Source: a virus. From it: 35,861 bases of DNA. Every line of letters begins with the position of its first letter. Within the stretch, counting starts at the first letter, position 1. The translations under genes and the position numbers were made by a program. The notes under the pieces were generated by a model. That model saw nothing but the letters and a program-made list of their open reading frames with translations, searched no databases and was not told the DNA's origin. The DNA is taken from the IMG/VR virus record IMGVR_UViG_3300027793_000176, positions 1-35,861 of that record; one strand, written 5' to 3'. Below are positions 5,625-18,824 of the stretch, piece after piece.

Positions 5625-5835
5625 AATCCATTGGGGTAGATAGAGTAACTAAAGACCCACATCCTGCACACTCAGCGTCTAAGAAATAGAATGTTAGCTC
5701 ACCCTTAGTGAATGCACCTAACATAATAAATACTTCACAGCCACAGACACACTGGTCTCCAATAGGAGTGCCTCGTAAATCCATTGCTTGTGTGTAGTCC
5801 TGGGTATGCAGCAGGTCTCTAATATCTCTAGGCAT
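5605..5835 (-). CDS. Small zinc-ribbon protein, unknown function
   Basis: A 76-residue protein with two cysteine knuckles: C29/C31/C33 in QCVCGCEVF and C56/C59 in ECAGCGSL, separated by a predicted beta hairpin (GELTFYFLDA). This fits a single zinc ribbon. Such proteins are abundant in actinophage early operons, and no enzymatic residues are apparent. It overlaps the sigma-like gene by 8 bases upstream and the WhiB-like gene by about 20 bases downstream, so the three are translationally linked. It could bind nucleic acid or a protein partner. Confidence 0.7.
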   Translation of the reverse strand: MPRDIRDLLHTQDYTQAMDLRGTPIGDQCVCGCEVFIMLGAFTKGELTFYFLDAECAGCGSLVTLSTPMDYEEDCE

Positions 5836-6478
5836 CTATGTCGTCGGCTTTTTCTGTAGGACCATCGTTGTCATAGTATGGTCTGAATCCACCAAGATTC
5901 TTGATAAGAGAATTGATAGCTCGCTGCACCTTCATTCTGGCGCCATCTGCTGTGGTCTTGAGTTCCCCAGCGAGAGCCGACCATTCTTGATTGTCAGCTG
6001 AGAATCTAATCCTCAATACATTTTGCTTGGCTTCGGACAACTTGTAAAATGCTGCTGCTATATCTGACCGTAATACTAACCAGTTGTTGCCGTCATTGGT
6101 TTCCCCTTTGCTGAACTTGAAGTTCAAGTCTTTTATCTTTTGAGGAATCTCGTATGACTCTGAAATAATAGAGGGAAGGAAAGCCTCTACGACAGATGAG
6201 TCGTAGTAGTAGAGGTCTAGAATCTCGTAGCCAGAGACCTTAGCTTTTTCTTTTTCGCAGAAAGATATTGCTGCATTACGCAGCGACTTAGCTATAAGTT
6301 TATCTTTATCTTTTTGCTCAAGTGCAGACCATTCAGAATACTTATTTGGATGGGTAACAAACCACAACCACAGCATTTGTTGAATGTCTAAGGCTTCAAC
6401 CATTTGATACCTACGGTGGTATTCAATGGCTAAGGACGCGACTAAAGTGTCGTACTCACTTAGATACGACTGCTCCAT
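5828..6478 (-). CDS. Sigma-70-like RNA polymerase sigma factor
   Basis: 216 residues. The N-terminal part (DIQQMLWLWF at 31-40, then LIAKSLRNAAISFCEKEKAK at 61-80) has the helical arrangement of a divergent region 2. Residues about 147-197 (YKLSEAKQNVLRIRF, WSALAGELKTTADGARMKVQRAINSL) read as region 4 with a helix-turn-helix, where the recognition helix follows TTADGAR. The central 60 residues are variable. It would compete for host core polymerase and direct it to phage promoters. It is two genes upstream of the WhiB-like regulator in the same operon. The start ATG follows GGAAGGAACTG. Region 2 is weak, so it might be an ECF-like or sigma-mimic protein. Confidence 0.7.
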   Translation of the reverse strand: MEQSYLSEYDTLVASLAIEYHRRYQMVEALDIQQMLWLWFVTHPNKYSEWSALEQKDKDKLIAKSLRNAAISFCEKEKAKVSGYEILDLYYYDSSVVEAFLPSIISESYEIPQKIKDLNFKFSKGETNDGNNWLVLRSDIAAAFYKLSEAKQNVLRIRFSADNQEWSALAGELKTTADGARMKVQRAINSLIKNLGGFRPYYDNDGPTEKADDIDA

Positions 6479-15062: not shown

Positions 15063-15518
15063 CTAAAGGCAGTTAGGACAAGGTGCGTGCAGATTGACTT
15101 GATAGTGACAATCCTCGCATATAGAATAACCACGAGGAATGTCAAGGTCATCCACTTGCGTGAACAACCTGTCGGTAATATCCACAATGGGTTCCTTGAA
15201 CTCCTTGCGAATTCTACCGTCAGCAGTGCGAGTCACTGAACCAATCCATTCAGACTGGTCAACTACCTCGCCAGGGTCATAAATATGAGATAGAATCGTA
15301 CCTAACCCAAAGCGTGCACGATTCTCAGCGTGGTCACGTTCCCACGGTCCTGAGCTATGAGAGCGCCACTCACGCTCTTGCATACACTCTAGACACATAG
15401 CATCTAGATGTTCACAATATACGCAGCCCATCACTGGACTCGTATCAAACGGTAAATCCAATATATCGTTATCCATCTCTTGACGCTCAGCTAACGAATA
15501 CACTTCGATACCATTCAC
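15063..15518 (-). CDS. Hypothetical protein with two cysteine clusters
   Basis: 151 residues. An N-terminal cluster (CVYCEHLDAMCLECM) and a C-terminal cluster (ICEDCHYQVNLHAPCPNC) each supply four cysteines in a treble-clef or rubredoxin-like arrangement. Between them is a charged segment (EWIGSVTRTADGRIRKEF) that looks beta. GTG start overlapping the TGA of the short ORF upstream. It may bind nucleic acids, or act as an assembly of zinc fingers at the head of the operon. No known family recognised. Confidence 0.68.
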   Translation of the reverse strand: MNGIEVYSLAERQEMDNDILDLPFDTSPVMGCVYCEHLDAMCLECMQEREWRSHSSGPWERDHAENRARFGLGTILSHIYDPGEVVDQSEWIGSVTRTADGRIRKEFKEPIVDITDRLFTQVDDLDIPRGYSICEDCHYQVNLHAPCPNCL

Positions 15519-15622
15519 TTGCTGTCTCCTTTCTTGAGCACAACCCCGTCACCCCTGTGCGGGGTTGTGCGACTTAGACTTGTAAGAAACTCAAGATACT
15601 TTCGATAATCTCTGATACGCAT
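15515..15622 (-). CDS. 35-residue basic leader peptide (possible)
   Basis: ATG 15622 behind AAGGGAACCT, stop overlapping the next GTG (GTGA). The peptide is basic (RIRDYRKYLEFLTSLSR, then a Gly/Lys-rich end). It is the first ORF after the proposed promoter at 15654-15683. It contains a perfect GC hairpin in its coding region, so translation of this leader could control folding and thus expression of the operon. Confidence 0.42.
   Translation of the reverse strand: MRIRDYRKYLEFLTSLSRTTPHRGDGVVLKKGDSK
15538..15570 (-). other. Perfect 11-bp hairpin in the leader
   Basis: GCACAACCCCG (15538-15548) pairs exactly with CGGGGTTGTGC (15560-15570), loop of 11 bases. On the minus strand it lies just upstream of the AAAGGAGACAGCA ribosome site of the 151-residue protein. 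Confidence 0.82.
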
Positions 15623-15653
15623 AGGTTCCCTTACCTCTCTAGACTTAGCCAAT

Positions 15654-15683
15654 ATTCTACACCCACCGAAGTGGAGATAGCAA
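15654..15683 (-). promoter_or_regulatory. Predicted sigma-70-type promoter for the minus operon
   Basis: On the minus strand TTGCTA (15683-15678) and TAGAAT (15659-15654) are separated by 18 bases. The spacer contains CCACTTCGGTGG, a hairpin with a UUCG loop. It lies directly behind a terminator and upstream of the next operon. Confidence 0.5.
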
Positions 15684-15712
15684 AAAGGGCTGACTGTTGC
15701 CAGCCAGCCCTT
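15682..15712 (-). terminator. Intrinsic terminator after the first minus-strand gene
   Basis: On the minus strand AAGGGCTGGCTG pairs with CAGTCAGCCCTT around a GCAA loop, followed by TTTTTGC. The one imperfect pair is a legal G-U only in minus-strand RNA, matching the direction of the gene that ends at 15717. Confidence 0.82.
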
Positions 15713-15716
15713 GATG

Positions 15717-16070
15717 CTAGAGCGAGGAGTCTTCCGACGGCTCTATGATTTCGTCGACGGATTCCAGCCTGAAGACCGTGCTCCAGGCTTCGCCACGCTT
15801 GTCAGTCTTGAACCAACCAGACACGCTTGCAATCGGGCGCTCTGGCTTACCGCTTTCGCCGGTGAGTTCAGCGGAATGCTCTTGTTGCTCCAGTATTCGG
15901 AGCGCTCCTACGGCATTGCTGAAGCAAATGAACGGTAGCGATGATTCAAAACCGCCGTTCTCATTGCGGAGGAGCAGTACGCCGGACGCGTATGGCTTGC
16001 CGTTCTTAGCAGTCCTGATGGACAGACCTGCAAGTTCGGCGTCTACGAAAGAAACGGTGTGCTTTGACAT
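15717..16070 (-). CDS. Hypothetical, possibly OB-fold (SSB-like) protein
   Basis: 117 residues. Beta-rich: VSFVDAELAGLSIRTAKNGKPYASGVLLLRN, then SSLPFICFSNAVGALRIL, then IASVSGWFKTDKRGEAWSTVFRLESVD. The 'V.G.......G...S.VFRLESVD' ending resembles the last strands of SSB. The C-terminus is acidic (IIEPSEDSSL), as in SSB tails that recruit partners. It is its own transcription unit, ending in a terminator, and is the gene nearest to the divergent regulatory region. A replication or recombination role is likely but unproven. Confidence 0.6.
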   Translation of the reverse strand: MSKHTVSFVDAELAGLSIRTAKNGKPYASGVLLLRNENGGFESSLPFICFSNAVGALRILEQQEHSAELTGESGKPERPIASVSGWFKTDKRGEAWSTVFRLESVDEIIEPSEDSSL

Positions 16071-16093
16071 TTCGACCTGCTTTCACTTTGGAG

Positions 16094-16652
16094 TTGTCGC
16101 CGCTCTTTTGAGCGACAAGACCCACGCTTTGCCACGGCGCGGGTTCCCTGCTGTCATAAGACACGCCCGCCCCCGGCGAGGCGTGGCGTTGACGGGAGGG
16201 TGCGGTGTGGCAGGGTCGTCTGTCGCTCAAGGCGGGAACCCAAAGTAGGTCGCAATGGCAACACCGTTCTGGAGTGCCGAACTGGGTCTGCCAAGGACTG
16301 CTGGCAAGCCGTCCGGTGGGCTCCGCAATGGCGGTTTTATCGCTCGGACATTTGCCTCGCGATGCCGTGCTCCGATGGGGCAACGTTCCGCTACCGGCGA
16401 GGTAAGACACCGATTGCGTCTGGTGGTTCCGACTGACGGTGAAGCCTACGGTTCTCAGCGGAAGCCCGACGAATCATCGGCGGTCCCGCTTCCCGTCAAG
16501 GCTGGCACAACGGTCAGCATTTATAGTTATCGGAACTATACTCAGCGCCCTGCTTAGGCTGGCAGAGACTGTAGCCTCTGCTCAGCCACGCAGAACAGTG
16601 CAGACAGCCCTGAGTCAAACAGTCTGGCGGTCTAAATGACCCCAGACTGTTT
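16094..16652. ncRNA. Candidate large structured non-coding RNA
   Basis: No reading frame here resembles a real gene, and the stretch is clearly GC-richer than its flanks. Visible helices: 16108-16117 with 16221-16230 (10 bp); 16119-16123 with 16213-16217; 16130-16135 with 16207-16212; hairpin 16162-16185; 16141-16148 with 16234-16241 (8 bp, crossing the first); 16189-16197 with 16491-16499 (9 bp); 16352-16360 with 16397-16405; 16427-16436 with 16455-16463; hairpin 16522-16540; arm 16540-16545 with 16610-16615 enclosing 16557-16567 with 16576-16587; 16617-16627 with 16642-16652. End-of-helix G-T oppositions are mostly legal wobbles in plus-strand RNA, which favours plus-strand transcription. 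Comparable in size to phage GOLLD/ROOL-type RNAs, but no identity is claimed. Confidence 0.55.
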
Positions 16653-16865
16653 ATATCTGGCTGAACTGGATATAGTACATACCCCAAAAGATTTTTCTGT
16701 ACAGTCCTGTGCCCCTGTTATCTGTCCTAGTATGTCCTATTTTGGTAGGACTTGGAAAAAATTTTTTCAACCAAACCGTTCGGTTAGGCTGTTTGAACAG
16801 GTTATATAGATAGTAGAGGCTGTTTTATTTTCTGCTAGCAAATCCCTTATGGATTTGCGTTACAG
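16653..16865. promoter_or_regulatory. AT-rich divergent regulatory region
   Basis: No gene is seen. The stretch has TATATC/GATATA arms (16652-16675), GTCCTA twice plus its complement TAGGAC (16725-16750), CTGTTTGAACAG, and a perfect palindrome GCAAATCC/GGATTTGC (16838-16845 and 16851-16858). Such symmetry suggests operator sites or an origin between the two divergent modules. No iteron set long enough to call an origin is apparent. Confidence 0.45.
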
Positions 16866-16875
16866 ACCGTATAAA
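16847..16875 (+). promoter_or_regulatory. Weak upstream tandem promoter
   Basis: TTATGG and TATAAA with a 17-base spacer. The -10 lies in ACCGTATAAACTAT, repeated nearly exactly 36 bases downstream in the stronger promoter. The -35 overlaps the 16838-16858 palindrome, a possible operator. Confidence 0.4.
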
Positions 16876-16882
16876 CTATCTG

Positions 16883-16911
16883 TTACAGCCTAGCTGTTCT
16901 AACCGTATAAT
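16883..16911 (+). promoter_or_regulatory. Predicted promoter of the terminase/late operon
   Basis: TTACAG (16883-16888) and consensus TATAAT (16906-16911), spacer 17 bases, 24 bases before the terminase GTG. The spacer contains the small palindrome ACAGCCTAGCTGT, a possible binding site overlapping the polymerase footprint. Confidence 0.68.
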
Positions 16912-16934
16912 ACTATTGTAGATGGGACAGCTCT

Positions 16935-18824
16935 GTGACTTTTCAGAAGAAGAATAATAACCCCAATGTGAGGGCTAGCGCAGAGGCAAAACTAAAAGTT
17001 CTAGCCTTAGTAGCAGAGGGGCACTCTGTTCCCAATGCGATGAGGCAAGTGGGGATGAAGCCCGACACCGTTAGAATATGGCTGGTGCGGGATAAGGACT
17101 TTGCCGCGAAACTGGAGCAAGCCCAGCAGGATGCCAAGTCGAACTCCATCAAGTCGCTGGGTATCGCAAAGGATGAGATTCAGTTTGCCCAGTTCTCTGA
17201 GATATTCTTAGGCAGCAAGATTTTTCCCCACCACCAAGATTGGATAGATTTGTTGGAGGGGCGCGAACCGAGCTGGCTCCATCCGTCGATGGTTTACGAG
17301 CCAGCCCAGTCCAACCGCTTTCTTATCAATGTGCCACCTGAGCACGCTAAGTCCACCGTCATCACGGTCAACTATTCGACTTATCGCATTGCTCTCAATC
17401 CGAACATACGAATCATCATCGTATCGAAGACCCTGTACAAAGCACGCGAGTTCGTGTATTCTATCAAGCAGCGTCTATCCCACCCACAGTATATGAAGCT
17501 CCAGACCACATATGGTCCTGAGGGCGGGTGGAAGCAGGACGCAGATACCTGGCGGGTCGATACTGTCTATCTTGGGAGCGATGCGAGGAATTCCTCTGAG
17601 AAGGACCCAACCATCCAAGCGCTCGGTATGGGCGGGCAGATTTACGGTGCCCGCGCCGATTTGATTATTCTGGATGACTGCATCACTACTGCCAATGCCC
17701 ACGAGTACGAGAAGCAAATCAACTGGCTGCAGAAGGAAGTTATCACCCGTCTGGGTAAGAACGGCAAGTTGCTTATAGTAGGGACACGCATTGCACCAAC
17801 TGATTTTTATAAAGAGCTTCGTGACCCTAAGTATTGGTCGTCTGGCAAAAGTCCTTTTACCTATCTTGGTATGCCCGCTGTACTTAGCTATGGCAGCAGT
17901 CCAAGCAAGTGGGAAACTCTTTGGGCTAAGTCTGACCAGCCCTGGGATGGCGACGATATCGAACCTGATGCGGATGGGTTATACCCAAAGTGGGACGGAC
18001 CAACCCTATATACCCGTCGTGGAGAAGTAACGCCGTATACCTGGGCGCTGGTCTACCAACAAGAGGATGTCGTCGAAGACTCCATCTTCCCACCTGACCT
18101 AGTACAAGGTTGCATCAATGGAATGCGCAAGCGTGGTCCGCTGCGACCTGGCTCTGCAGGGCACCCAACCCAAGTTGAGGGTTACACCGTAGTGGGATTT
18201 GACCCAGCTATGGGTGCGGGGCGTGCTGCATTTGTGGCAATGACCTACAACCGCCACGATGGAAAGATTTATGTGCTGGACTGTCTTGATATGGCAGAGC
18301 CAACACCACAGAAGATTAGGCAAGCGATTGAGGAGTTTGTCCAAAGGTACAAACCGCAAGAGCTTCGCGTCGAAATCAACGCCCACCAGAAAGCATACGC
18401 ACTTGACTCTGACCTCCAACAGTGGCTCTCCGCTTATGGATGTCGTCTCAATGCTCACTTCACTGGCAAGAATAAATGGGACACCAACTTCGGCGTCGCG
18501 GGAATGTCTACGCTCTTTGGAACAACCCTCAATGGCAAGCACCAGAAGAACAACCTCATTGAGTTACCAAGCACTGAAGGTTCTGAAGGACTCAAAGCTT
18601 TAGTCCAGCAGTTACTTACGTGGCGTCCCGATACTAGGGGCAAGACTGACTGTGTGATGGCACTCTGGTTTGGTGTGCTTCGCTGCCGAGAGTTTATGCA
18701 GCAAAACTCCTATGTTCAAAAGTATGCCCATAACCGTTGGGCTACGAGAGCACAGGCTTCTAAGCGTTATACGGTAAACCTTGATGAGATGGTTTCCGAA
18801 CAGTGGCAACAAATCTATGGATAG
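16935..18824 (+). CDS. terL: Terminase large subunit with N-terminal helix-turn-helix
   Basis: 629 residues; drives DNA packaging and cuts concatemers. Residues about 15-65 (LALVAEGHSVPNAMRQVGMKPDTVRIWLVRD) form a helix-turn-helix like those of small terminase subunits. The ATPase has a variant Walker A (VPPEHAKST, 133-141) and Walker B LIILDD (243-248). The nuclease domain begins at VVGFDPAMG (D423), with further acidic residues at VLDCLDMAEP and ALDSDL. No separate small subunit is visible in the window, so the N-terminal HTH may do its job. GTG start with GGGACAG upstream, directly behind the late promoter. Confidence 0.93.
   Translation: MTFQKKNNNPNVRASAEAKLKVLALVAEGHSVPNAMRQVGMKPDTVRIWLVRDKDFAAKLEQAQQDAKSNSIKSLGIAKDEIQFAQFSEIFLGSKIFPHHQDWIDLLEGREPSWLHPSMVYEPAQSNRFLINVPPEHAKSTVITVNYSTYRIALNPNIRIIIVSKTLYKAREFVYSIKQRLSHPQYMKLQTTYGPEGGWKQDADTWRVDTVYLGSDARNSSEKDPTIQALGMGGQIYGARADLIILDDCITTANAHEYEKQINWLQKEVITRLGKNGKLLIVGTRIAPTDFYKELRDPKYWSSGKSPFTYLGMPAVLSYGSSPSKWETLWAKSDQPWDGDDIEPDADGLYPKWDGPTLYTRRGEVTPYTWALVYQQEDVVEDSIFPPDLVQGCINGMRKRGPLRPGSAGHPTQVEGYTVVGFDPAMGAGRAAFVAMTYNRHDGKIYVLDCLDMAEPTPQKIRQAIEEFVQRYKPQELRVEINAHQKAYALDSDLQQWLSAYGCRLNAHFTGKNKWDTNFGVAGMSTLFGTTLNGKHQKNNLIELPSTEGSEGLKALVQQLLTWRPDTRGKTDCVMALWFGVLRCREFMQQNSYVQKYAHNRWATRAQASKRYTVNLDEMVSEQWQQIYG

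Follow-up and report, generated by a model that had tools for sequence, protein, structure and literature searches.

Long stems are found in the early leaders of phage transcripts that are processed by RNase III, such as lambda N and T7 0.3. A different arrangement is present in T4, where the gene 32 operator comprises a pseudoknot of ∼28 nt, and the SD region downstream of it is less structured and has UUAAA repeats (PMC535899). P22 sar is a cis-encoded phage antisense RNA to ant (PMC12197685), and the staphylococcal cabRNA, a CBASS-activating phage RNA, is derived from the terS-terL coding region (PMC10686824).

Here, we have analyzed a 35.9-kb virus record of IMG/VR (IMGVR_UViG_3300027793_000176), whose whole length of 35,861 nucleotides is referred to as the window. 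A leftward gene block (∼4.9-16.07 kb), which includes a DnaB-like helicase, a DnaG-like primase and a weakly sigma-factor-like protein, is followed by a rightward block that opens with the terminase large subunit gene (terL) at 16935, and the divergent genes are separated by 864 non-coding bases (16071-16934). The 600 nt from 16071 folded far better than dinucleotide shuffles on both strands (z = -7.1 on + and -6.7 on -), with local sources of the signal at ∼16050-16250, 16500-16700 and 16750-16900, and 16260-16450 being unremarkable. An ORF on the + strand (16255-16557) was rejected as coding because indels and early stops interrupt it in relatives; its ATG is ATT in L027.

The subject of this study is a rod-like imperfect hairpin, D1, at the left edge of this region. 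Structured phage mRNA leaders are a known kind of element, to which D1 would add a new variant. It has no Rfam family: with 4227 models, nothing in the window reached the gathering threshold, and matches at E up to 10 in 15500-17000 were at chance level. A blastn search of the region against phage records gave no match either. As in the autogenous translational operator of T4 and RB69 gene 32 (SSB), D1 would regulate translation of a phage SSB gene from a structured 5' leader; the product of the adjacent gene, p117, has a predicted SSB/PriB-like fold (Z up to 7.0) with no sequence match, and the transcript is presumed. It differs from that operator in that the SD and AUG lie inside a rod of ∼190 nt: opening the SD costs 17-28 kcal/mol, and no conserved pseudoknot 5' of an unstructured SD was found. 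As with lambda N and T7 0.3, D1 would have its long stem in an early leader, and loss of this stem would make the ribosome-binding site accessible, whereas cleavage of D1 is putative and the alternative hairpin formed after loss of its far arm is a folding-based proposal. Were it transcribed rightward, D1 would relate to an early gene as sar does to ant, lying antisense to its translation start, but it is much larger and more structured than sar and lambda OOP, a further cis-encoded phage antisense RNA, and its promoter and transcript are hypothetical. It resembles cabRNA as a structured phage RNA near terminase genes, but lies between genes, is associated with another gene and has its pairing conserved by covariation. 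The features are as follows (strand given where assigned).

15717-16070, - strand: p117, a 117-aa protein encoded at the head of the leftward operon and predicted to have an SSB/PriB-like OB fold (AlphaFold2, Foldseek, VIA-align)
16067-16257: D1, rod-like imperfect hairpin with 67 consensus pairs in six helices (RNAalifold and pair counts, 11 homologues; covariance model R1)
16067-16101: 5' arm of the closing helices, the complement of the SD and start codon of the gene at 15717-16070 (-) (compensatory changes in helix 1, 7/24 pairs)
16068-16084, - strand: start codon of the divergent gene (16068-16070) with its SD-like GAAAGCAGGT (16075-16084) (sequence; opening cost 17.3 kcal/mol)
16094-16118: alternative local hairpin, TTGTCG..CTC / GAGCGACAA, mutually exclusive with helix A (analogous hairpin in folded type A and B members)
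16108-16117: 5' arm of helix A, real and conserved, partner 16221-16230 (92.7% paired, double change in 5/10 pairs)
16119-16140: 5' arms of helices 3 and 4, partner 16202-16217 (consensus fold, pair counts)
16141-16148: GGGTTCCC, 5' arm of a claimed pseudoknot, not supported as such (homologue pair counts, energies)
16146-16200: distal rod with helix 5 (16146-16156/16190-16200), a conserved internal loop, helix 6 and the apical loop (96% paired)
16221-16230: 3' arm of helix A (covariation with 16108-16117)
16231-16257: closing helices, 3' arm, which seals the SD and AUG on the - strand (pair counts, opening cost)
16234-16241: GGGAACCC, 3' arm of the claimed pseudoknot, whose partner in the nested rod is instead 16090-16098 (covariation, energies)

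Architecture, conservation and distribution of the rod

Conservation of D1 was analyzed in an alignment (A2) of 11 type A sequences, including that of the window, over 16067-16257 (mean column identity 81%). The consensus fold was a single unbranched rod of 67 pairs, in which 92.1% of cells were paired and compensatory changes were observed at 21 pairs. Double-changed cells numbered 42, compared with 11.3 in shuffles (0/500), and when the partners were slid by 1-3 columns as a control, pairing was only 39-47%. The closing helix covaries through the SD and AUG (TTTTGTA/TACAAAA, TTTTCTA/TAGAAAA and TTTCATA/TATGAAA among relatives), and its pairing reaches CAT/ATG in relatives. The rod alone had z = -6.0/-4.9 in the window and down to -11 in relatives. 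On the basis of these results, 16067-16257 is a genuinely structured, selected RNA or DNA element.

The distribution of D1 was examined in terminase relatives from IMG/VR (best 80 of 576 stretches kept) and in relatives of the divergent gene. D1 was found in freshwater-type phages only, and always at the start of the p117 gene, that is, at every p117 locus with upstream DNA read, in both types A and B. In type B relatives, p117 is ∼52-62% identical and the rod is shorter (∼120 nt), with the same closing helix and an interior of unrelated sequence. The type A covariance model gave 140-233 bits for its 11 type A training members and 30-34 bits (E ∼1e-5 to 1e-4) for six held-out type B members (L027, L094, L079, L041, L048 and L028); it missed L051, L095 and L096, although their folds appeared similar by eye. 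A type A motif scan of IMG/VR yielded, outside the locus, just two unrelated contigs (L103 and L105), neither of which was recognized by the covariance model. Phages with a 79-83% identical terminase but a CxxC-rich first gene had no D1; some of the D1-less relatives had just a short hairpin before the RBS, and others had other, larger structured inserts. Since D1 is absent from phages with a near-identical terminase and another first gene, it belongs to the p117 gene and not to packaging.

The translation start within the rod

The product of the divergent gene was characterized by structure prediction. The AlphaFold2 model of p117 (pLDDT 83) contains five strands and one helix in OB order, and SSB and PriB predominate in the Foldseek and VIA-align lists (best VIA-align Z 7.0 over 87 residues). 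Its sequence had no Pfam, PHROG, NCBIfam or PDB match, and a search for a host or prophage among 84,980 prokaryote species, each represented by a single genome, gave no relative of the protein. The modelled fold makes an SSB-like role of p117 likely; a structure comparison with Z 7.0 would, taken alone, be no proof of SSB identity.

The computed cost of opening the SD and AUG was 17.3-28.4 kcal/mol in 12 of the 13 rod-bearing members, whereas 33 other starts (14 first genes of rod-less relatives and 19 other genes of the window) required 2.2-14.5 kcal/mol. The exception was L092 (10.5 kcal/mol). In this least sealed member of the set, the p117 gene (607-960) was observed to have a stop after ∼48 residues. 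When the transcript was started inside the rod, such that the far arm is lost, the computed cost dropped to 4.5-13.9 kcal/mol. In addition, the near half of the rod holds a second hairpin that is incompatible with the rod in both types (16094-16118 in the window, GCCACTC-UUGU-GAGUGGC in most type A members and unrelated sequences in type B). In most members it was more stable than in rod-preserving shuffles (combined p ∼1e-9 over members that are related, kinship being ignored) and was weakest in the window (p = 0.24; 35/150 rod-preserving shuffles). Within type A, it had no significant covariation of its own. The anatomy of D1 is switch-like, in that a central strand can pair either with its immediate 5' neighbor or with a strand far to the 3' side, these two pairings being mutually exclusive.

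Given the opening costs and the second hairpin, our interpretation of D1 is that of a two-state leader belonging to the leftward operon headed by the SSB-like gene; it would lock SSB translation until the far arm is lost, and a pseudoknot has no part in it (probability roughly 40%). On a leftward transcript, the whole of D1 would fold as one long rod with the SD and AUG in its base, and because of this position the intact leader would presumably not be translated into the SSB-like protein. As a dsRNA-like stem, the rod could be cut by RNase III, the obvious candidate, or opened by some other event; this release step we infer. Once the far arm (16221-16257) had been removed, the near arm could refold into a small hairpin a few tens of nt upstream of the SD, and the computed accessibility of the SD and AUG would be about that of ordinary genes. 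The earlier note, which was made from the window alone, had contrasted the element with a simple leader; this contrast is unsupported, because one end of D1 falls exactly on the start codon of the divergent gene and, in any leftward mRNA with an upstream start, D1 would necessarily form the 5' leader. Should the leader reading be correct, the translation start of a replication protein is locked in an unusually stable RNA rod with a releasing alternative fold, a directly testable switch that differs from the classical T4 SSB operator.

Strand of folding and alternative explanations

The strand on which D1 folds is the main weakness of the leader reading, and the evidence on it is mixed. The leader reading keeps first place since the SD and AUG are where the helix ends. 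A serious rival, standing nearly equal to it although in itself somewhat unlikely, is that D1 is a rightward (+) noncoding RNA. Its 5' end would overlap the start of translation of the SSB-like gene in antisense orientation, and it would either repress the early operon as an antisense RNA or act as a free rod-like RNA. A first count of G.U against A.C in the alifold consensus was strongly in favor of the + strand, but came partly from a bulge ignored by the consensus, and was replaced by a count in Watson-Crick-only folds. In such folds, the 1x1 mismatches of D1 types A and B were G.U-type in 11 cases and A.C-type in 1, and all structured inserts at the locus gave G.A 40 to C.T 3 and G.U 22 to A.C 6, a G.A count that the purine-rich + strand may inflate. 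Many members have apical loops G(CUUG)C or C(GNA)G on the + strand, which are stable loops on that reading only. Energy was lower on + in all type A members; after correction for composition, the difference favored + in 8/8 type B members and 16/16 other inserts, but was near zero in type A. On the other hand, the - strand covariance model outscored the + strand model on held-out type B members (46.5/33.7, 38.0/30.7, 36.3/30.2 and 34.8/33.3 bits), such that the covariance models show a slight preference for -. No rightward promoter was found at the left edge, where the divergent gene is coding, and a promoter scan for a transcript over D1 gave none that was convincing on either strand.

A broader version of the noncoding reading, which we consider rather unlikely, concerns the locus as a whole. 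In freshwater-type phages (576 terminase relatives in IMG/VR), it may hold a fast-evolving set of highly structured rightward ncRNAs of several unrelated types (120-330 nt), optional and swapped between relatives. D1 would belong to this set and serve in some role apart from leader control, such as early-operon silencing or decoy.

It is less probable still that D1 works as DNA, namely, as a hairpin extruded from a single strand, for example, a primase/helicase loading site of an origin beside the SSB gene. D1 folds well on either strand, and the phage encodes a DnaB-like helicase and a DnaG-like primase. GNA loops and G.A or G.T mismatches are favorable in DNA too, and would suit such a hairpin as well. 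The cumulative GC-skew minimum is also near 15-20 kb, but this turn coincides with the switch from leftward to rightward genes. Relatives with ∼80% identical terminase lack D1, which therefore is no general origin, and a DNA role leaves unexplained why the closing helix lies exactly over the SD and AUG.

The earlier note had suggested a functional tertiary RNA, in which helix A is crossed by a second helix (16141-16148/16234-16241) and 16189-16197 reaches out to 16491-16499. It is very improbable that this pseudoknot with its contact is the functional fold. The quoted complementarities are exact in the window: TTGAGCGACA (16108-16117) pairs with TGTCGCTCAA (16221-16230) at 10/10 positions and GGGTTCCC with GGGAACCC at 8/8, and, as a statement about sequence, TTGACGGGA (16189-16197) is complementary to TCCCGTCAA (16491-16499) at 9/9. 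Helix A was borne out by covariation over the 11 homologues (92.7% paired, compensatory change in 5/10 pairs), and the helices 16119-16123/16213-16217 and 16130-16135/16207-16212 are real parts of the conserved rod. The crossing helix, examined in the same way, was rejected: all 8 pairs form in the window alone, ten relatives retain 2-5 of them (57.5% of cells paired), and chance yields an exact 8-mer complement in 24% of shuffles of the stretch. Its 3' arm is engaged instead in a nested covarying helix with 16090-16098 (GUUGUCGCC/GGCGGGAAC in the window and GUUGCC/GGCAAC in L004 and L005), with compensatory versions at the same position in L007 (UUUGCGCC/GGCGCA) and L008 (UUGUCACC/GGUGACAA). 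Freeing both arms would cost ∼22 kcal/mol, of which the 8-bp stem gives back at most ∼15, and the fold is thus at least 7 kcal/mol worse before any pseudoknot penalty. The 9-nt contact is private to the window, with 6-7/9 pairs elsewhere and a longest exact complement there of 4-5 nt. Two crossing helices that are both maintained, as in an RNA pseudoknot, were not found, and the aligned sequences indicate that the pseudoknot is not real as a conserved fold. What stood of the proposal is a structured, selected element, be it RNA or DNA; the interlocking and the long-range contact did not hold against the homologues. A striking exact pseudoknot from one sequence can disappear on aligning homologues.

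Finally, a packaging RNA, for which the intergenic position upstream of terL might speak, was rejected by distribution and can hardly be entertained, as many phages with 79-83% identical terminase have no D1, which tracks the divergent SSB-like gene and does not co-occur with the terminase in the manner of phi29-type packaging RNA.

Other structures of the intergenic region

The highly conserved block before the terminase (16780-16934) contains a palindrome (CCGTTC-N13-GAACGG) followed by a TTAATACTATATAGGGGC-like promoter sequence (TTATATAGATAGTAGAGG in the window). Its leader part has covarying hairpins (GGGGCACAAAGTGCCC/GGGGCGCAAAGCGCCC, and CTGATAGT..ACTATCAG swapped with ACTATCAG..CTGATAGT), and the + strand folds better in 49/50 loci. 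The block looks like a late promoter with a structured leader. A weak sigma-70/ECF match was observed at 5828-6478 (- strand), possibly a phage sigma factor able to read the late promoter.

Strongly structured inserts unrelated to D1 (z down to -9.9) were found in L020, L029, L040, L045, L052, L074, L014, L026, L059 and L076-L078, at the same place (∼-860 to -480 from the terminase) and with a CxxC-rich first gene; several of them share a CTGTCA..TTTGACAG closing motif. L021, L032, L055, L061, L071 and L081, which have no large insert, carry a hairpin whose short loop is rich in purines (on the leftward strand, ARRTA-like), mostly directly upstream of the SD of the first gene. The contigs of seven relatives (L003, L009, L010, L033, L034, L037 and L072) start 364-377 nt upstream of the terminase (∼16558-16571 in the window), perhaps at a physical genome end or an assembly break.

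Between these positions and the late block, a near-perfect hairpin was observed at 16616-16652 (AAACAGTCTGG-CGGTC-loop-GACCCCAGACTGTTT). The 3' arm, TGACCCCAGACT, persists in most relatives even with a diverged 5' arm, as if the sequence itself were read. It is followed at 16660-16760 by a conserved CAAAAAGATTTTCCCGTACA-like block and then by TGTCCTATTTTG direct repeats.
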